Below, one piece after another: positions 5,050 to 26,917 of a DNA stretch of 38,687 bases; the first letter of the stretch is position 1; the number at the start of each line of letters is the position of its first letter. The notes beneath the pieces are model-generated. The model saw only the letters and a program-made list of their open reading frames with translations. It made no database searches and had not been told where the DNA came from. The stretch is from contig JAHHOT010000048.1 of assembly GCA_018677555.1 (NCBI GenBank), forward strand, positions 1 through 38,687, given 5' to 3'. The stretch comes from Gammaproteobacteria bacterium. GTDB taxonomy: Bacteria; Pseudomonadota; Gammaproteobacteria; Steroidobacterales; Woeseiaceae. The position numbers were made by a program, and so were the translations under genes.

Positions 5050-5616
5050 TCAGGTGCGCGGCAGGGTCACGCCCAGCTGACCCTGGTACTTGCCACCGCG
5101 GTCGCGGTAGGACGTTTCGCACTGCTCGTCAGATTCGAAAAACAGCATCTGCGCCACGCCTTCGTTGGCATAGATTTTCGCCGGCAACGGCGTCGTGTTC
5201 GAGAATTCCAGCGTGACGTGCCCTTCCCACTCAGGCTCCAGCGGCGTCACATTGACAATGATGCCGCAGCGCGCGTAGGTCGATTTTCCAAGGCACACCG
5301 TCAGCACATTGCGCGGAATGCGAAAGTACTCGACCGTGCGTGCGAGGGCGAAGGAGTTTGGCGGAATCACGCAAACGTCACCGGTCTTGTCGACAAAACT
5401 CGTCTCGTCGAAGGACTTCGGATCGACGATGGCCGATTCAATATTGGTAAAAACCTTGAATTCGTCGCTGCAGCGCACGTCGTAGCCGTAACTGGAGGTG
5501 CCATACGAAATGATCCTGTGGCCGTCCGTACTCCGTACCTGGCCGGGTTCGAACGGCTCGATCATGTTCGCCTCGAGCGCCATGCGACGAATCCATTTGT
5601 CGGCTTTGATGCTCAT
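5050..5616 (-). CDS. dcd: dCTP deaminase
   Basis: This enzyme deaminates dCTP to dUTP, the main source of dUMP for thymidylate synthesis in proteobacteria. The 188-residue product has the expected length and the family motifs: the N-terminal [50 protein letters not shown] with the catalytic glutamate, and [15 protein letters not shown]. The ATG at 5616 shares a base with the apbC stop codon, so the two genes are translationally coupled. A bifunctional deaminase/diphosphatase is unlikely given the E. coli-like ending and overall layout. Confidence 0.96.
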
Positions 5617-6710
5617 CAGGTTTCCTCGACGACGATGTTCGGGAAGCGGCGGCTGTAGTCCTTGCCCTGCATCGCCAGCTGCGCGGCCATGCGCCGGGCC
5701 GCGCTGGCGTAGGCACGCGCGGCCGCCGAATCCGGATCGGCCACGACTGTCGGTGTGCCGCTGTCCGTCTGCTGGCGGATGTTCGCGTCCAGCGGCAGCC
5801 GGCCAAGCAGCTGAACGTCGAAGTCCGCTGCCATGCGATCACCGCCACCGCTGCCGAAAATCGCCTCCTCGTGGCCGCATTTCGAGCAAATGTGCGTGCT
5901 CATGTTCTCGACGATGCCGAGAACCGGTACCGAAACCTTGCGGAACATCTGCAGACCCTTGCGCGCGTCGAGCAACGCGAGATCCTGCGGCGTGGTCACG
6001 ATCACGGCCCCGCTGACCGGCACCTGCTGTGACAAGGTCAGCTGGATGTCGCCGGTGCCGGGTGGCATGTCGACAATCAGGTAATCGAGCTTGTCCCAGC
6101 GCGTCTGCTGCAATAGCTGATTGAGCGCCTGCGTCACCATCGGGCCACGCCACACCATCGGCTGGTCCGCATCGATGAGAAAACCGATCGACATGACCTG
6201 TATACCGTGCGCCTCGAGCGGATTCATGCTCTGCCCGTCGTCGCTGGTCGGGCGCTTGCCGCTCAGACCGAGCATCAGCGGCTGGCTGGGCCCATAGATG
6301 TCCGCATCCAGCACGCCGACGCGAGCGCCGTCACGTGCCAGCGCCAGCGCCAGGTTGGTCGCCGTGGTTGACTTGCCAACGCCACCTTTACCCGAAGCGA
6401 CGGCAATGATATTGCTGACGTTGTCGAGCGGTTTCAACGTCCGCTGCACGCCATGCGCGGTCAATTTGTAACTGATCGAAACCGTAACGTTCGCGCCGGG
6501 GTGCATCGTGTTCACCGCGTTGCGAATGGCCGCGCAATACTCGTCTTCGACGGTCGCCGCAGGAAAGCCGAGTTGTATCGATACGGCTACGCTGGTGTCC
6601 TGAATCGAAATATCCACGATTCGTCCAACTTCCTGCAATGGCCCCGGTATTTCGGGTAATACCAATGCCTTAAGAGCGTCTTTCAGGTCAGAATTTGTTG
6701 ACAATGTCAC
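5616..6710 (-). CDS. apbC: Iron-sulfur cluster carrier protein, Mrp/NBP35 family
   Basis: This 364-residue P-loop ATPase belongs to the Mrp/ApbC group that carries and delivers Fe-S clusters. Residues about 10-80 form the MIP18/DUF59-type N-terminal domain. The deviant Walker A is [16 protein letters not shown] (about 107-122), followed by [10 protein letters not shown], a Walker B region ending in VDMPPGTGD, and the CxxC pair in [14 protein letters not shown] that ligates the bridging cluster at the dimer interface. The first codon is GTG at 6710; no in-frame ATG gives a complete N-terminal domain. In many gammaproteobacteria apbC is next to metG; here the HEAT-kinase/pilT block lies between them. 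Confidence 0.93.
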
Positions 6711-7081: not shown

Positions 7082-9472
7082 ATGGTCCTCCTCGGTGGCT
7101 TTCGTGCGGACCAGATTATCGGCGATCTCATCAGCGAGACGGATCCGGATTCCGCAAGCGCGAGAAAACTCACCGAACGCCTGAAAGGCATCGGCCCGAA
7201 GGCCATCCCCAAAGTCATCGATGCGCTGGCGATGAGCGACAAAAAGCACACGATGGCGTTCGTCGACATACTTGCCAGCAATGTCAGCGACAAGACCCTG
7301 CATTACTACAAGGAAGGGCTGGCGGACGGCGGCGATCGGGTGGTCATGGGCACCGCCTGGGCCTTGTCCAGCAGCACTAACTACAACCCGAACCTGCTAC
7401 TGGAATTTTTCGACGATCCCGAGGTCTCGAAACCGGCCCTGATCGAAGTTCTCAAGGTCCACAAGGACGACCTCAGCGTGCATGACCTGTTGCAGCGCGC
7501 CTACGAGATGGAGCCGAAGGAAAAGGCCGCATTGTTCACGATCATCGAGGATACGGTGACATCCGACATGATCCCGGACCTGATTGCCCGCATGGGAGGC
7601 AAAGATCCGGCCATCAAGATCCACCTGATGAACCTGTTGTCGAAGTTCGACAAGGCCGACATCAATCACGCACTCGAAATGCAGCTCGGTGACGGCAACA
7701 AACTGGTGCGGAGCGCAGCGCTTTCGGCACTCGCCACGCGCGGCGGCCACATTAACGTTGCCAGGGTCGCCAAACTGCTGCAGGACCCGGATCTCGACGT
7801 GCAGAACAAGGCCGTGGACGTGCTGATCAAGGCCAATCACCCGGATACGATCAAATACCTGGTGGCGGCACTGAAAGACGAATCGGAGTATTCGCGCCGC
7901 GCTGCCGTCGAAGTGCTCAACGAGATCGGCAACGCTGACTCCGTCAAGGACCTGCTTGATGCGATCAAGGACGATGACTGGTGGGTGCGTGCCCGTGCCG
8001 GCGACGCGCTGGCTGAAATTGGCGGTCCGCGCGTGGTGGACTCCGTGCTGACGCTGATCACGGACGAGGACGAGGATATTCGGCGAACCGCGATCGAGAT
8101 TCTCAATGCCACCAAGGACGACCGCGCGGTCGACTCGCTGCTGAAGGCGACGGACGACACTGACTGGTGGGTTCGCGAGCGCGCGGTTGACGCGCTGTCA
8201 CAGATCGGCAATCGCCGCGCGGTCCCCAAGCTGCTGGATCTGCTCGGCAAGGATTCCAGAACGGACACCTGCGTCGTGCGCGCGCTCGGCAAACTGGGTG
8301 ATCACAAGATAATCAGCCAGATCGTGCCTATGCTGAATCGCGGCGATCGCGCAACGCAGATCGAGGCTATTCGGGCCATTTCTCATCTCACGAACGAGAG
8401 CCAGGCCGAGAGAGTACGCACCGTCCTGACCAAGATCAAAAAGACCGACGACGCGACGATCGTGAACAATGCCGACAAGGCAATAAAAGAGATCGACGCC
8501 AAGTTCTCGGCAACCGTGCTGGCCGAAAACGAGCGTGCCGAAAAGATGAAGGAGCATACGCGCACGCTGCTCATCGAAAACGAGGATATCGACGAGCTCA
8601 TCGCTACGCAGGAACCCGAGCCGTCGGCAGTGCTCGACATTTCCAAGCTTGAGCCCGGCGAAGTCATCGATAATCGCTACAAGTACATCGAAAAAATCGG
8701 CAAGGGCGCATTCGGCACCGTGCTTCTGATGCAGGACCAGGTGGTCGACGAACAGCTCATCCTGAAATTCCTGAACCCGAACGTCTCCTCGGACGAAGAG
8801 ATGATGAAGCGCTTCGTTCACGAGCTTCGTTATTCGCGCATGATCACGCATCGCAACGTTATTCGAATCTATGACTTCCTGCACCTGCAGGGCTGCTATG
8901 CGATATCGATGGAATATTTCCCGTCGCACACGCTGTCGGGTGAAATTCCCGACAATAATCCGATGGCTTTCGACAAGGCGTTGAAGTTTTCACAGGATAT
9001 GGCAACCGGCATGTCGGTTGCGCACCAGGCCGGCGTCATTCACCGCGACCTCAAACCCGCGAACATCCTGGTGAACGACGAAGGGCTTCTGAAGATCGTG
9101 GACTTCGGCGTGGCCGCGGCCGCGAGCAGTGGCGATACGCAGCTGACCAAGACCGGCTACGTTATCGGCTCACCGAAATACATGGCGCCCGAGCAAATCC
9201 TGGGCAAGAAAGTCGATGCAACGGCCGATATCTACAGCATCGGCGTCATCATGTACGAGATGGTTACCGGAATACCCCCGTACAGCCGTGGCGATCACAT
9301 GTCGGTGATGTACCAGCACGTGCAGGGCAAAGCGAAAAAATGCCAGGAAATTAACCCCAGCGTGCCCCCCGGCCTCGCTCAGGTCATCGGCAAAGCCATG
9401 TCCGTGGACAAATCCAAGCGCTACCGGACGATGGACGAGCTGTACGACGCGCTCTCGGACGTCCAGCTGTAA
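7082..9472 (+). CDS. HEAT-repeat Ser/Thr protein kinase (soluble, two-part)
   Basis: This 796-residue fusion has a HEAT-repeat solenoid of about 31-residue units across roughly residues 60-450. Two near-identical helices with DWWVR occur at 299 and 361, exactly two units apart. A charged linker follows, then a eukaryotic-type kinase domain at about 533-790. The kinase looks catalytically complete: glycine loop GKGAFGTV (from 540), Lys562 in ILKF, HRDLKPAN (654), DFG (674-676) and APE (702-704). There is no transmembrane or PASTA segment, so it is cytoplasmic. The only ATG that keeps the conserved N-terminal region is 7082; a stop at 7064 excludes an earlier one. The HEAT part probably docks partner proteins. 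Two PilT-like genes follow on the same strand 106 bases later, suggesting a role with type IV pilus retraction (inference). Confidence 0.9.
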   Translation: MVLLGGFRADQIIGDLISETDPDSASARKLTERLKGIGPKAIPKVIDALAMSDKKHTMAFVDILASNVSDKTLHYYKEGLADGGDRVVMGTAWALSSSTNYNPNLLLEFFDDPEVSKPALIEVLKVHKDDLSVHDLLQRAYEMEPKEKAALFTIIEDTVTSDMIPDLIARMGGKDPAIKIHLMNLLSKFDKADINHALEMQLGDGNKLVRSAALSALATRGGHINVARVAKLLQDPDLDVQNKAVDVLIKANHPDTIKYLVAALKDESEYSRRAAVEVLNEIGNADSVKDLLDAIKDDDWWVRARAGDALAEIGGPRVVDSVLTLITDEDEDIRRTAIEILNATKDDRAVDSLLKATDDTDWWVRERAVDALSQIGNRRAVPKLLDLLGKDSRTDTCVVRALGKLGDHKIISQIVPMLNRGDRATQIEAIRAISHLTNESQAERVRTVLTKIKKTDDATIVNNADKAIKEIDAKFSATVLAENERAEKMKEHTRTLLIENEDIDELIATQEPEPSAVLDISKLEPGEVIDNRYKYIEKIGKGAFGTVLLMQDQVVDEQLILKFLNPNVSSDEEMMKRFVHELRYSRMITHRNVIRIYDFLHLQGCYAISMEYFPSHTLSGEIPDNNPMAFDKALKFSQDMATGMSVAHQAGVIHRDLKPANILVNDEGLLKIVDFGVAAAASSGDTQLTKTGYVIGSPKYMAPEQILGKKVDATADIYSIGVIMYEMVTGIPPYSRGDHMSVMYQHVQGKAKKCQEINPSVPPGLAQVIGKAMSVDKSKRYRTMDELYDALSDVQL

Positions 9473-9578
9473 AAATTCCGCACCGGCACCGCAAAATGTG
9501 CGGTAGCGCACTGGCAAGGCCCGGTCTTTCCGCCTAGGATACGCGCAAAGTCATGATTTTCCGGAGAATCCCTACTTT

Positions 9579-10664
9579 ATGCCGCGTATCGACTCATTCC
9601 TGAAGCTGGGCCTCGCCCAGGGCTGTTCGGACGTCCACCTGGCCGTCGGCGTGCCGCCCATGCTACGCATGAACGGGGATCTGATGCCGATCAAGTTTCG
9701 CCACCTGTCCGGCGAGGAACTCGAGAGCTACGTCATGGAGATCCTCAGCGATTCGCAGAAAGAGTATTTCGGTACCGGCAAGGACCTGGACTTCTCCTAC
9801 GTCGGCGAGGACGGCGGCCGCTTCCGCGTGAATCTGTTTCGCAAGGATACCGGCGTTGGCGCCGTGTTCAGGCATATTCCCAACGAGGTGCCGACCCTCG
9901 AGAAACTCAATGTGCCGAAAGTCATTCGTGACTTTTGCGACTATCACCAGGGCATGGTCCTGGTCACCGGCTCGACCGGAACCGGCAAGTCCACGACCCT
10001 TGCGGCAATGATCGATCACCTGAACAAGTCGCGCAACCTGAACATTATCAGCCTCGAGGACCCGATCGAATTCGTGCATCCGAGCAAGAACAGCCAGGTC
10101 ATCCAGAGAGAACTCGGCACTCACTTGAGGTCGTTCGCCGACGGAGTCCGCTCCGCTATGCGCGAAGATCCGGACGTTATTCTCGTCGGCGAATTGCGCG
10201 ATGCCGAGACTATATCCATGGCCATGACAGCGGCCGAGACAGGCCACCTGGTCTTGGGCACGCTGCACACCACGGGCGCGGTAAAGACGATCGATCGCAT
10301 CATTGACGCTTTGCCGGGCGAGTTGCGCGAGCAAACAAAGGCGTTCCTGTCACAAAGCCTGAAAGCCGTGGTCACCCAGGTCCTCTGCAAGACGCCTGAC
10401 GGGCGCGGCCGCCGTGCGGCAATGGAGATCCTGGTCAACAACCGCGCGATCTCCAAGCTCATCATGACCGACCAGACGCACCAGATCCCGGCACAGCTGC
10501 AAACCGGCCGCGACCTGGGCATGCAATTGATGGACATGGCCTTGCTACAGGGAATCGAGAACGGTGAGATCGACCCGGATGACGCGTTCCGATTCGCGAC
10601 AGACAAGCAGAAATTCCAGCGCTTTGTAACCGACACCAGCATTTTGCCGACTCTGGGTGGTTAG
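9579..10664 (+). CDS. PilT-family twitching motility ATPase (first of a tandem pair)
   Basis: This 361-residue secretion-type hexameric ATPase matches PilT/PilU over its full length: an N-terminal PAS-like part with SDVHLAVGVPP, Walker A GSTGTGKST (131-139), the acidic box SLEDPIEFVH, Walker B DPDVILVGELRD, a His box with GTLHTTGA, and the C-terminal GMQLMDMALLQG. The canonical PilT ending with AIRNLIRE reads AISKLIMTDQ here, so it is not clear whether it is PilT or PilU, and I give no symbol. Such ATPases disassemble type IV pili at the inner membrane. GGAGAA at 9561-9566 is a plausible but distant ribosome-binding site. A hairpin (ACCGCA/TGCGGT, 9488-9504) lies between the kinase gene and this one. 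Confidence 0.9.
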   Translation: MPRIDSFLKLGLAQGCSDVHLAVGVPPMLRMNGDLMPIKFRHLSGEELESYVMEILSDSQKEYFGTGKDLDFSYVGEDGGRFRVNLFRKDTGVGAVFRHIPNEVPTLEKLNVPKVIRDFCDYHQGMVLVTGSTGTGKSTTLAAMIDHLNKSRNLNIISLEDPIEFVHPSKNSQVIQRELGTHLRSFADGVRSAMREDPDVILVGELRDAETISMAMTAAETGHLVLGTLHTTGAVKTIDRIIDALPGELREQTKAFLSQSLKAVVTQVLCKTPDGRGRRAAMEILVNNRAISKLIMTDQTHQIPAQLQTGRDLGMQLMDMALLQGIENGEIDPDDAFRFATDKQKFQRFVTDTSILPTLGG

Positions 10665-10671
10665 AGGCTCC

Positions 10672-11736
10672 GTGGAAAACAAAATCGACCACTACCTGAA
10701 TGACGCACTGTCGAAAGACAGCTCCGATCTCCATTTTATTTCCGGCGATCCGCCCCGGGTGCGGGTTCACGGCTCGCTGCGGCTACTGAGTGAGCAGCGC
10801 CTGACCATCGAGAATGTGAAGGAATGCCTGTACGAGATCATGAGCGGAACGACGCAACGCGACTTCGAGCGCGATGATGCCGTCGACTTTGCTTACGAAA
10901 TCCCCGGTGTCTCGCGTTTCCGGGTCAACGTGATGCGTCACCTGAATGGCGTAGGCGCCGTCTTCAGGGCGATTCCGTCGAAGGCGCTCACGCTGGAAGA
11001 CCTGCAGATGCCGAAGTCCATCATCAATCTGTGCCGGCACACACAAGGCATGATACTCGTCACCGGCAAGACAGGCTCCGGAAAATCGACCACACTCGCG
11101 GCGATGATCGACGAGATCAACAGCAACCTGAAGGGCCACATACTTACCATTGAGGACCCGATTGAGTTCGTCCATGAGCGCAAGGGGTGCCTGATCAGTC
11201 AGCGCGAAGTCGGTGTGCACAGTGACAGCTTCGCTGATGCGCTGCATTCCGCATTACGCGAAGATCCCGATGTCATCCTGGTGGGCGAAATGCGTGATCT
11301 GGAGACGATCGGCATCGCCGTGACGGCCGCGGAAATGGGCATCCTGGTAATGGGTACGCTCCATACGAACGGCGCGGGACAAACCGTCGATCGCATCGTG
11401 AATACGTTCCCGGCGGACAAGCAAGGGCATATTCGCACAATGCTTTCGACCTCGCTGCGCGGTGTGGTTTCCCAGCAGCTGCTGCCAACCAAAGGCCGCC
11501 CGGGCCGCATTGCTGCACTCGAGGTCCTGATCAACACCCCCGCCGTGGCGAACCTCATTCGCCAGGGCAAGCTCGACCAGCTGGAAACTGCCATGCAGGC
11601 TGGCGGTGCGACCGGCATGCAGACGATGGACTCCGCCCTGATGGACCTGGTCGAGCGTGCAATGATAAGCGGCCGGGATGCGTATCAGCAGGCGAACAAC
11701 AAGCAGAAGTTCCAGGACATCCGCAACGACACCTAG
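10672..11736 (+). CDS. PilT/PilU-family ATPase (second of a tandem pair)
   Basis: The 354-residue product is a second full-length retraction-type ATPase. It has SSDLHFISGDPP near the N-terminus, Walker A GKTGSGKST (132-140), TIEDPIEFVHE, Walker B DPDVILVGEMRD, GTLHTNGA and GMQTMDSALMDL. Its C-terminal LIRQGK is closer to the canonical PilT LIREGK than that of its neighbour. I chose GTG at 10672, preceded by AGAGG at 10663-10667, because it gives VENKIDHYLNDAL, which aligns with PilU-like starts. An in-frame GTG at 10657, overlapping the first gene, would add five residues. The two paralogues probably form a coupled pair like PilT-PilU, but which is the main motor cannot be decided by reading. 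Confidence 0.88.
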   Translation: MENKIDHYLNDALSKDSSDLHFISGDPPRVRVHGSLRLLSEQRLTIENVKECLYEIMSGTTQRDFERDDAVDFAYEIPGVSRFRVNVMRHLNGVGAVFRAIPSKALTLEDLQMPKSIINLCRHTQGMILVTGKTGSGKSTTLAAMIDEINSNLKGHILTIEDPIEFVHERKGCLISQREVGVHSDSFADALHSALREDPDVILVGEMRDLETIGIAVTAAEMGILVMGTLHTNGAGQTVDRIVNTFPADKQGHIRTMLSTSLRGVVSQQLLPTKGRPGRIAALEVLINTPAVANLIRQGKLDQLETAMQAGGATGMQTMDSALMDLVERAMISGRDAYQQANNKQKFQDIRNDT

Positions 11737-11813: not shown

Positions 11814-13805
11814 ATGTCCCAGCGCAAAATACTGATGTCCAGTGCACTGCCCTACGCCAACGGGTCGCTACACCTCGGGCATATGGTCGAGTATCTCTAT
11901 TCTGACATCTGGTCCCGATTTCAGAAGTTGCGTGGCCATCAATGCACTTTCGTCTGCGCGGCCGACGCTCACGGGACGCCCATCATGATCCGGGCGCGAG
12001 AAGAGGGTATATCGCCGGAAGCCCTGGTCGAGCGGATATCGGCGGAGCAACTGGCGGACCTCGAGGCATTCGGCGTCGCTTTCGACAACTTTCATTCCAC
12101 GCATTCGGAGGAGAACCGCCTCCTTATCGAGCGCCAGTATCATGCCCTGCGCGAGGCCGGCCACATCTACACCAAGACGATCGAACAGGCTTACGACGAA
12201 GCAGAGAGCATGTTTCTGCCGGACCGCTTCGTGCGCGGCACCTGCCCGACCTGCAAAAGCGAAGATCAGTACGGCGACGCCTGCGAAGTGTGCGGCACGA
12301 CCTATACGCCGAATGACCTGATAGACCCGGTATCCGTGCTCTCCGGTTCGAAGCCGGTGTGGAAAGATTCGGAGCACTATTTCTTCCGCCTGAGCGCGTT
12401 CGAGGAGCAACTCAGGGCGTGGATGGCCGACGCCGAACTGCACCAGAACATAACCAGCAAGCTCGAGGAGTGGTTCGAGGCCGGCCTGCAGGACTGGGAC
12501 ATTTCGCGTGATGCGCCCTACTTCGGTTTCCTGATTCCGGGCACCGAAGACAAATATTTTTACGTCTGGCTGGACGCACCGATGGGCTATGTCGCCAGCT
12601 TCATGAATCTGTGCCAGCGACGCGATGATCTCGAATTCGACGAGTACTGGGATCCCGGGCACGACACCGAGGTCTACCACTTCATTGGCAAGGATATCGT
12701 GTACTTCCACACGCTGTTCTGGCCCGCGGTGCTGCAAGGCGCCGGATTTCGCCTGCCGAACAGCGTATTCGCGCATGGATTCCTGACGGTCAATGGCAAG
12801 AAAATGTCGAAGTCGCGCGGCACGTTTATCAGCGCCCGTACCTACCTGGATAATTTGAACCCGAATTTTCTGCGCTACTACTACGCCGCCAAGCTCGGTC
12901 CGGGCATGGATGACATCGACCTGAATCTCGACGACTTCATAGCGCGGGTCAACTCGGACCTGGTCGGCAAGCTGGTCAATATTGCCAGTCGCTGTGCCGG
13001 GTTCATCAGCAAGCAGTTCCACGGTGCGCTTGCGGCCGAGCTCGACGACCCCCCCTTGTTCGACGAGTTCGCCGCGGCCTCGGCCACCGTGGCGGCTCAC
13101 TACGAAGCCCGCGAATACTCAAAGGCCATGCGCGCCGTCATGGCACTTGCCGACAAGGCAAACCGCTACATCGAGGACAAGAAGCCCTGGGTTCTCGCGA
13201 AGGACCCCGGTAATTCTGACCAGGTGCAAAACGTTTGCACACAGGGCCTCAACCTGTTCAGAACCCTGATGATTTACCTCGAGCCGGTCGTTCCCCTGCT
13301 GGCGGCGGGGGCCAGAGAATTGTTCGACGAGGGCAAATGGTCCTGGTCGGATGCCGGGCACCCGCTGCTCGGTGCTACGATCAACAAGTACGAACCGCTG
13401 ATTACGCGGGTCGACGCCAAACAGGTGCAGCACATGGTAAAGCAGTCACGGGAACCGGTTGAGAGCGTTAACGAGGCTCACGAGATCACCATCGACGAAT
13501 TCATGAAAGTCGATCTGAGGGTCGCGAAAATCACCGCCGCGGAGCCGGTCGAGGGGGCCGACAAATTGCTGCGGATTACGCTGGACCTCGGTGACGGTCA
13601 GAGGACGGTATTTGCCGGCATCAAGGCGGCGTACGACAGCGACACGCTGATCGGCCGGCACGTCGTCGCGGTCGCCAATCTGAAGCCGCGAAAGATGCGC
13701 TTCGGCACATCGGAAGGGATGATTCTCGCGGCCGGACCCGGTGAGCAGAATATATTCCTCCTGTCCGTTGACGATGGCGCCGAACCAGGCATGCGCGTGA
13801 AATAA
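11814..13805 (+). CDS. metG: Methionyl-tRNA synthetase
   Basis: This class I synthetase charges tRNA-Met and initiator tRNA. The 663-residue protein has the HLGH form of the HIGH signature (20-23), a zinc knuckle with Cys144, Cys147, Cys157 and Cys160, and KMSKS at 330-334. It ends in a tRNA-binding (EMAP/Trbp111-like) domain from about 555, containing [19 protein letters not shown], the dimerising version found in E. coli-type MetG. The length is normal. A CATAAT -10-like box at 11773-11778 lies 35 bases before the start, but no -35 is evident. The rsxA start follows 54 bases after the stop. Confidence 0.97.
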
Positions 13806-25171: not shown

Positions 25172-26917
25172 CTAACGTTTCTTCGGCATGTACAGATCGG
25201 TCAGCGTACCGTCCTGTGCCTCCGCGGCGAAAGCAATCGTTTCTGACAGAGTCGGGTGCGGGTGGATGGTGAGCGAGATATCGGTGGCGTCGGCACCCAT
25301 CTCGACCGCAAGGCCAATCTCGGCGATCAGGTCCCCGGCATGTGGGCCGACAACCCCGCCGCCCAAAACGCGATCGGTCTTCTTGTCGAACAGGAGCTTG
25401 GTGAAGCCTTCGGTTCGGCCCAGCGACAAGGCGCGTCCGCTTGCGGCCCAGGGTATCCTGGTTTTGTCGACCGCAATGCCTTGCTGCTTTGCCTCCGTCT
25501 CGGTCAGGCCGACCCAGGCGATCTCCGGATCGGTGTAGGCCACTGACGGAATCGTGCGTGCATCGAATGCGGCCTTTTCGCCGGCTGCGACCTCTGCTGC
25601 CACTTTGGCTTCGTGCGTCGCCTTGTGCGCCAGCATGGGACCTCCTGCGAGATCGCCGATGGCGAAAATATGCGGGACGTTGGTCTGCATCATCTTGTTG
25701 ACCGGAATAATGCCGCGATCCGTGAATTCCACGCCGGCCTTGTCCGCGTCGAGCCTGTCGCCGTTCGCGCGCCGGCCGATTGCGACCAGCACCTTGTCGA
25801 AAACGGCAACGTCGCGGCCCTGCTCCGCCTCGAAATGCACCTCGATGCCGGGCACCGTCGGGTGCATGTTGGTCACCTTGGTGCCGAGTCGTATCGACTC
25901 GTAGCGCTGCTCCACGATTTTCTGGAACGGCCGTACGAGGTCGGGGTCGGTGCCGGGCATAAGGGTGTCTGTCAGCTCGACGACGCTGACCTGGGTGCCA
26001 AGCGCACAGTAAACGCAGGCCATCTCCAGCCCGATTATGCCGCCGCCCACCACGAGCATGCGTTTCGGGACAGGATCGAGTTCCAGGGCACCGGTGGAAT
26101 CGACGATTCGAGGATCGTCTGGCGTTCCCGGCAACGCGGCGCTCTGCGACCCGGCCGCGATTATGCATTTCCCGAACTGAATCGTCTCTCCGTTATCCAG
26201 GACCAGGCGGTTCGCCGATTCGAACTTAGCGGTGCCCTGCACGACCTGGACTTTGCGCTGCTTCGCCATCTGTCCGAGACCGCCGGTCAGCCGCCCAACC
26301 ACGTCGTTTTTCCAGCCGCGCAGACGCGCAGCGTCGATCTTCGGTTTACCGAATGCGATGCCATGCTCTGCCATCGCTTTCGCGTCATCGATCACTTTCG
26401 CCGCATGCAGTAGCGCTTTCGAGGGGATGCAGCCCACGTTCAGGCACACGCCGCCGAGCACCGGGTAACGTTCGACCAGGATGACCTCTAACCCGAGATC
26501 CGCGGCGCGAAACGCCGCGGTATAGCCGCCGGGACCGCTACCAATGACGACGAGCTGTGTGCTGTAGGTGGCGTCCGTCGGCTGCGGGGCGGCGGCTGTG
26601 GCGCGCTGCAGAATCGCCGACTGCTCCTGTTCTTCGATGACATCCGTGGAAGTGTGCTGGACGTCGGCGTCACTTTCGCCAACCTCGATAGTCAGGATTG
26701 CGTCGCCTTTTGAGACCTTGTCACCGACGGCCACGACCAGCGAAACGATCGTGCCTGCTGTGGTCGCCGGCACGTCCATCGAGGCCTTGTCCGTCTCCAG
26801 CGTGATCGTCGGGTCCTCGACCTCGAGCCGATCGCCGGGCGCTACGAGGATTTCGATAACCTCGACATCCGAGAAATCGCCGAGATCCGGAACCGTAAGC
26901 TCGATCTGGCGGCCCAC
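25172..26917 (-). CDS. lpdA: Dihydrolipoyl dehydrogenase with N-terminal lipoyl domain (E3)
   Basis: The 581-residue E3 subunit reoxidises dihydrolipoamide of the pyruvate dehydrogenase complex with NAD. Residues 1-80 are a lipoyl domain with the modified Lys44 in ETDKASMDVP. A linker follows, then the FAD site VVIGSGPGGYTAAF, the redox disulfide in GGVCLNVGCIPSK, the NAD site VVGGGIIGLEMA, and the C-terminal His-Glu pair in HPHPTLSE. E3 with its own lipoyl domain is known in some beta- and gammaproteobacteria. The first codon is GTG at 26917, overlapping the aceF stop by one base; no nearby ATG keeps the lipoyl domain. Confidence 0.95.
   Translation of the reverse strand: MGRQIELTVPDLGDFSDVEVIEILVAPGDRLEVEDPTITLETDKASMDVPATTAGTIVSLVVAVGDKVSKGDAILTIEVGESDADVQHTSTDVIEEQEQSAILQRATAAAPQPTDATYSTQLVVIGSGPGGYTAAFRAADLGLEVILVERYPVLGGVCLNVGCIPSKALLHAAKVIDDAKAMAEHGIAFGKPKIDAARLRGWKNDVVGRLTGGLGQMAKQRKVQVVQGTAKFESANRLVLDNGETIQFGKCIIAAGSQSAALPGTPDDPRIVDSTGALELDPVPKRMLVVGGGIIGLEMACVYCALGTQVSVVELTDTLMPGTDPDLVRPFQKIVEQRYESIRLGTKVTNMHPTVPGIEVHFEAEQGRDVAVFDKVLVAIGRRANGDRLDADKAGVEFTDRGIIPVNKMMQTNVPHIFAIGDLAGGPMLAHKATHEAKVAAEVAAGEKAAFDARTIPSVAYTDPEIAWVGLTETEAKQQGIAVDKTRIPWAASGRALSLGRTEGFTKLLFDKKTDRVLGGGVVGPHAGDLIAEIGLAVEMGADATDISLTIHPHPTLSETIAFAAEAQDGTLTDLYMPKKR

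Follow-up and report, generated by a model that had tools for sequence, protein, structure and literature searches.

The three-gene locus and its kinase

In the window, the whole stretch of 38,687 nucleotides of DNA that was analysed, three adjacent open reading frames lie on the plus strand. The first (7082..9472, 796 amino acids) encodes a HEAT-repeat Ser/Thr protein kinase, as identified from the reading frame, Pfam and its orthologs, and it is followed by the genes of two PilT-family ATPases, here called mod1 (9579..10664, plus strand, 361 amino acids) and mod2 (10657..11736, plus strand, 359 amino acids). The kinase reading frame matched the Pfam families HEAT_2 (E 9.7e-60) and Pkinase (5.8e-50), and both ATPases matched T2SSE. 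The coordinates, Pfam and NCBIfam agree on the arrangement given in the preliminary description of this DNA, a kinase followed by two PilT-type genes. The mod1 and mod2 genes overlap by 8 bases, and 106 bases separate the kinase stop codon from the start of mod1.

The three genes had been described as an insertion between apbC (5616-6710, minus strand) and metG (11814-13805, plus strand), and this was borne out by the Pfam matches of both flanking genes. Beyond these are two genes that, from their protein sequences, we take to be dcd, on the minus strand on the apbC side, and an rsxA-type gene, on the plus strand on the metG side. No further pilus gene was found among the window proteins scanned, as had also been stated, and the remaining T2SSE-family matches of the source genome lie on contigs other than C57, which holds the window (assembly 82% complete, 4.24 Mb). 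A promoter and terminator scan gave no signal exceeding that of shuffled sequences. The closest named relatives are Woeseia and Woeseiaceae MAGs. Elsewhere in the window, a gene for a dihydrolipoyl dehydrogenase that carries a lipoyl domain of its own at the N-terminus (25172-26917, minus strand) stands in a row of pyruvate dehydrogenase genes.

The kinase domain (residues 526-796; 8657..9469, plus strand) was examined in an alignment of 34 kinases, in which the distant kinases were restricted to those longer than 700 amino acids and the one from locus L183 was left out. The catalytic Lys, alpha-C Glu, HRD Asp, Asn and DFG Asp of Hanks-type kinases (K562, E581, D656, N661 and D674), together with T689 of the activation loop, were invariant in all 34 sequences, the window included, and the enzyme indeed carries all the catalytic motifs that had been attributed to it. 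By fold and sequence its best natural relatives among solved structures are PknB/Stk1-type kinases, with which it shares the kinase domain, but an N-terminal HEAT solenoid takes the place of the PASTA part, which in PASTA kinases is extracellular. Membership of the PASTA kinases was rejected: the score against the Stk1-PASTA model NF033483 was 270.5, compared with a cut-off of 450, and only the kinase part matched.

The large HEAT solenoid of the preliminary description was likewise found, both in the Pfam match and in an AlphaFold2 model built from an alignment of 22 rows. In the model, approximately 15 HEAT repeats (about 30 helices) occupy residues 1-475 (7082..8506, plus strand), followed by a linker and by the kinase domain, which was modelled with low confidence; in the HEAT part, 10-residue blocks over residues 11-470 mostly had pLDDT values of 80-94. 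The most conserved HEAT stretch, residues 226-385 (7757..8236, plus strand), is even better conserved than the kinase domain (mean majority fraction 0.706 and 0.652, respectively, over the 34 sequences). It contains invariant RR, N and DxDWW motifs, in which residues such as R272, R273, N280, W300, W301, R334, R335, N342, W362 and W363 were identical in all the other 33 full-length orthologs. When artificial alphaRep proteins were aligned with this region, the letters opposite W300-W301 and W362-W363 differed from protein to protein; presumably these variable letters are the alphaRep binding positions. On these grounds we propose that residues 226-385 form a conserved docking face.

Linkage and joint inheritance of the three genes

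Conserved linkage in relatives, whose complete lack had been named in advance as an argument against a connection between the kinase and the ATPases, was found across families with differing flanks, and it was accompanied by joint losses. Among the named loci of Woeseiaceae type (the best 80 of 329), the kinase was followed by mod1 in 76 loci and by mod2 in 71 loci of the 80; every miss fell at a contig end, and the order kinase-mod1-mod2 was seen in every complete copy. The whole block dcd-apbC-module-metG-rsxA is syntenic throughout the Woeseiales-type genomes, and adjacency there proves little on its own; it would also be expected if the three genes were chance neighbours with no functional link.

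More distant genomes were therefore the informative ones with regard to changed flanks. In a class-wide sample of 369 genomes, 51 contained a kinase match at a threshold of E 1e-60, and 40 regions around such matches were fetched. The order kinase-mod1-mod2 was present in 35 of these 40 gammaproteobacterial loci, and the dcd/apbC/metG flank could be recognised in just one, which came from the same order as the window. The exceptions were a contig end (L168), a divergent kinase (L183), a masked stretch (L185) and two loci of one family (L162 and L165) in which the kinase lies away from the ATPase pair. In the genomes G221 and G422 the kinase does not adjoin the pair, and mod1 is present elsewhere in the genome. 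In the 29 distant loci where it could be measured, the distance from the kinase stop codon to the mod1 start had a median of 4 bases, and the two genes often overlapped. A search of 398 genomes of the phylum at E 1e-80 returned the source genome alone; the share of other classes in that sample is not shown, which leaves the outer limit of the distribution uncertain.

Joint inheritance was followed with a mod1 profile built from 26 mod1 proteins and run over the same 369 genomes of the class. Forty-five genomes scored at least 619.6 bits, and no other passed E 1e-140. All 45 fall among the 51 kinase genomes (Fisher p ~1e-51, a value that ignores relatedness). Of the six kinase genomes without a profile-passing mod1, three belong to one family, f169 (G212, G322 and G417), and have a kinase of like architecture with 26-31% identity; in the one f169 locus that was read (L183, from G212), no PilT gene follows the kinase. 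Some of the conserved residues of the HEAT face are present in the f169 kinase and others are not, and this protein may be a module kinase after loss of the pair or an older relative. Its occurrence without mod1 speaks against a common function of the three genes, as does the separated arrangement in G221 and G422. Part of the kinase gene of G341 (locus L185) is masked, and no conclusion was drawn from the kinase domain that this genome seems to lack. G356 is not counted among the 45 but has a partial mod1 on contig C160 (442.5 bits, model positions 125-359), and with it at least a portion of the pair, and G368 is a fragmented assembly with a partial kinase only.

The profile was also run separately on 28 selected genomes, where the six selected carriers scored 613-667 bits. 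Seven relatives that contain no kinase (G033, G055, G182, G242, G280, G298 and G393; completeness 85% for G033 and 75% for G393) reached at most 410 bits; since this is the level of canonical PilT, kinase and mod1 are absent together while ordinary PilT stays. Small genomes of the genus g5 (8 of 8), together with G041, G047, G048 and G164, lacked the kinase, mod1 and any PilT-type match at E 1e-60. PilT was present in 50 of the 51 kinase genomes and in 259 of the 318 others (p 0.0016, from lists compared by eye), a weak test, PilT being common.

The changed flanks, the co-occurrence in 45 of 45 genomes and the joint absence in relatives led us to reject chance adjacency, to which we attach a negligible probability. 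That the set is kept or lost as a unit in many gammaproteobacteria suggests that the kinase switches a dedicated second motor pair.

The ATPase pair within the PilT family

The preliminary description had called mod1 and mod2 two full-length retraction ATPases. Their length and family score uphold this in part: both exceed the cut-off of the NCBIfam PilT/PilU family TIGR01420 (418.0 and 444.3 bits; cut-off 319.1). The phylogeny and the motifs do not allow them to be equated with ordinary retraction motors. In a midpoint-rooted tree of 188 PilT-family proteins, whose members came from the window together with eight named and the fetched loci, a mod1 clade of 48 and a mod2 clade of 46 formed a joint clade of 94 with a support of 1.0. 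Three members of this clade were labelled "other": G221 accounts for two of them with its unlinked pair, and in the third (L176) the start of the reading frame was called too early. Beside the module clade, and nearest to it, stands the canonical PilT clade of 34 proteins, and the remaining 60 proteins form a PilU-type group (44 PilU, 14 of a third paralog and two more). The source genome also carries a canonical pilT-pilU pair on another contig (C44, locus L241), the pilT of which falls into the PilT clade. The third PilT-family paralog (14 proteins, from L216, L217, L218 and 11 other loci) adjoins canonical pilT-pilU where all three can be seen.

The Walker A Lys, the Walker B Glu and the acidic residues of the Asp box were kept in 48 of 48 mod1 and 46 of 46 mod2 proteins. 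The His box retained both histidines in all 48 mod1 proteins, whereas in mod2 the first was replaced in every case (44 Ile, 2 Val; Ile in the window) and the second was present in 46 of 46; elsewhere the first histidine was found in 34/34 PilT, 44/44 PilU and 14/14 proteins of the third clade. The first Arg of the AIRNLIRE motif, a PilT signature residue present in all 34 canonical PilT proteins, was missing from all 48 mod1 and all 46 mod2 proteins. The module ATPases resemble canonical PilT and PilU in belonging to TIGR01420, in their Walker A, Walker B and Asp boxes and in being encoded as a tandem pair; they differ in their own clade, the missing Arg, the His-box change of mod2 and their position directly after a kinase gene. 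A plain pair of PilT and PilU orthologs was ruled out by the separate clade and these motif differences.

The meaning of these changes can be gauged from published work on PilT. Mutations in AIRNLIRE abolish PilT function in vivo and leave the hexamer intact (PMC6153414), and the His-box histidines are required for function (PMC6762196). The missing Arg of both clades, the missing mod2 histidine and the finding of no linked gene for a pilus machine would agree with a pair that does not power type IVa retraction at all and instead serves another machine (type II secretion or another pilus) or acts as a non-motor regulator of canonical PilT. We regard this as improbable, in view of the closeness of the pair to canonical PilT (mean identity of 46% for mod1 and 50% for mod2) and of PilU, which has no AIRNLIRE either and nevertheless acts in Vibrio cholerae as a retraction ATPase that depends on PilT (PMC6762196).

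The secretin genes of the carriers also argue against it: all 45 module genomes gave a match to a PilQ-family secretin, which exceeded the cut-off in 42 of them. In addition, 42 of 45 had a PilT match of canonical strength (E 1e-147 or better, read by eye); the three others (G143, G244 and G330) are all in many contigs. The module thus accompanies type IVa pilus genes, and it supplements PilT and does not replace it. Twitching genes are reported in all Woeseiaceae MAGs of one study (PMC12175321). Judged from their sequences, mod1 and mod2 most likely constitute an accessory, PilT-dependent motor, in which mod2 is perhaps catalytically altered. By description, a similar case is Neisseria PilT2, an accessory third retraction paralog beside PilT and PilU; the main text of the paper on it (PMC10790696) never uses the word "kinase", whereas the module pair sits after a kinase gene.

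Phospho-signalling and a possible control of the motor pair

The explanation that we favour, and consider moderately probable, is that the locus provides type IVa pili with an accessory motor pair under phospho-control, and that the kinase docks by its HEAT face. The three genes would work as one module: the inner face of the solenoid, which is conserved, would let the kinase recognise a partner, and the kinase would phosphorylate mod1 and mod2, or a regulator acting on them, which would turn the accessory pair on or off. The speed, force or timing of type IVa pilus retraction could thereby be tuned apart from ordinary PilT/PilU. Conserved Thr and Ser residues specific to each clade, T351 in the C-terminal tail of mod1 and S181 and T265 in mod2 (Glu in canonical PilT at the last position), are only candidate phosphosites, picked from the alignments as leads. 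In a more specific form, which we put forward tentatively and consider rather unlikely, mod1 would be the catalytic and mod2 the altered part of a hetero-motor that is clamped by the HEAT face and phosphorylated, which would bring a second retraction gear into or out of action on the canonical PilT machine.

The reason why many bacteria hold several PilT paralogs is unsettled, and a co-inherited kinase offers one concrete answer, that certain paralogs work as gears of their own, controlled by Ser/Thr phosphorylation. It also provides handles, as partner, docking face and phosphosites can each be named, the latter two as candidates. If the hetero-motor form is true, a eukaryote-like Ser/Thr kinase would directly gate a pilus motor, as a phospho-clutch widespread enough to occur in 45 of the 369 class genomes sampled. 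No description of the kinase with a PilT pair was found in the open-access literature on PilT with HEAT repeat/kinase, FHA/kinase or retraction/phosphorylation. In the consulted passages of a review on how PilB is controlled, phosphorylation is mentioned in its histidine-kinase/response-regulator form, and "threonine" does not appear there (PMC11656802).

Additionally, the surroundings of the module were scanned for genes of FHA and PP2C types within the fetched stretch (measured from the kinase start, at most ~6.8 kb on the upstream and 9 kb on the downstream side). Among the 40 distant loci, which are related to one another so that the counts are not independent, an FHA gene was near the module in 22 (in 6 of these 22 an FHA-cyclase protein); PP2C phosphatase genes were seen in 10 loci and FHA-GAF-HD proteins in 6. 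An example of the last is encoded upstream of a distant module on the opposite strand (L154:3447-5468, approximate coordinates); such a protein may link phospho-signalling to cyclic-di-GMP breakdown. Directly upstream of the kinase, 31 of the 40 distant loci have a conserved protein of ~157 amino acids (e.g. L155:5728-6201, about), for which Pfam gives DUF6812 alone, below the cut-off. It was not seen in the Woeseiales-type loci, nor in 20 near genomes in a search run without a positive control. In 83 Woeseiales-type loci the queried FHA and PP2C types were absent from the vicinity of the module, which counts against the phospho-controlled motor pair; the frequency of such neighbours in the distant loci, compared with 8 FHA genes in the whole source genome, counts for it.

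The neighbours seen in the distant loci could point to a reverse or parallel flow of information, in which the motor pair signals the load on the pilus or contact with a surface, which the kinase then relays to other targets (FHA proteins, adenylate cyclase, HD-GYP proteins), the motors themselves not being phosphorylated. A relative of the FHA-cyclase (35% identity) is indeed encoded on another contig of the source genome, C62. We consider such a relay unlikely, as FHA-type genes are missing near the module in those 83 loci and it is the ATPases that are regularly inherited together with the kinase; control of the motor pair by the kinase is the reading we retain.

Type VI secretion is under threonine-phosphorylation control by PpkA/PppA/Fha, that is, a kinase, a PP2C phosphatase and an FHA protein. 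The distant module loci resemble this logic; the machine is a different one, and neither a PP2C nor an FHA gene stands beside the module in the window. The source genome has 8 FHA genes in its 4.24 Mb. On its contig C18 (L249), another Ser/Thr kinase, a PP2C and an FHA protein are encoded in a row, and this FHA protein and PP2C are relatives of the module neighbours in distant lineages.
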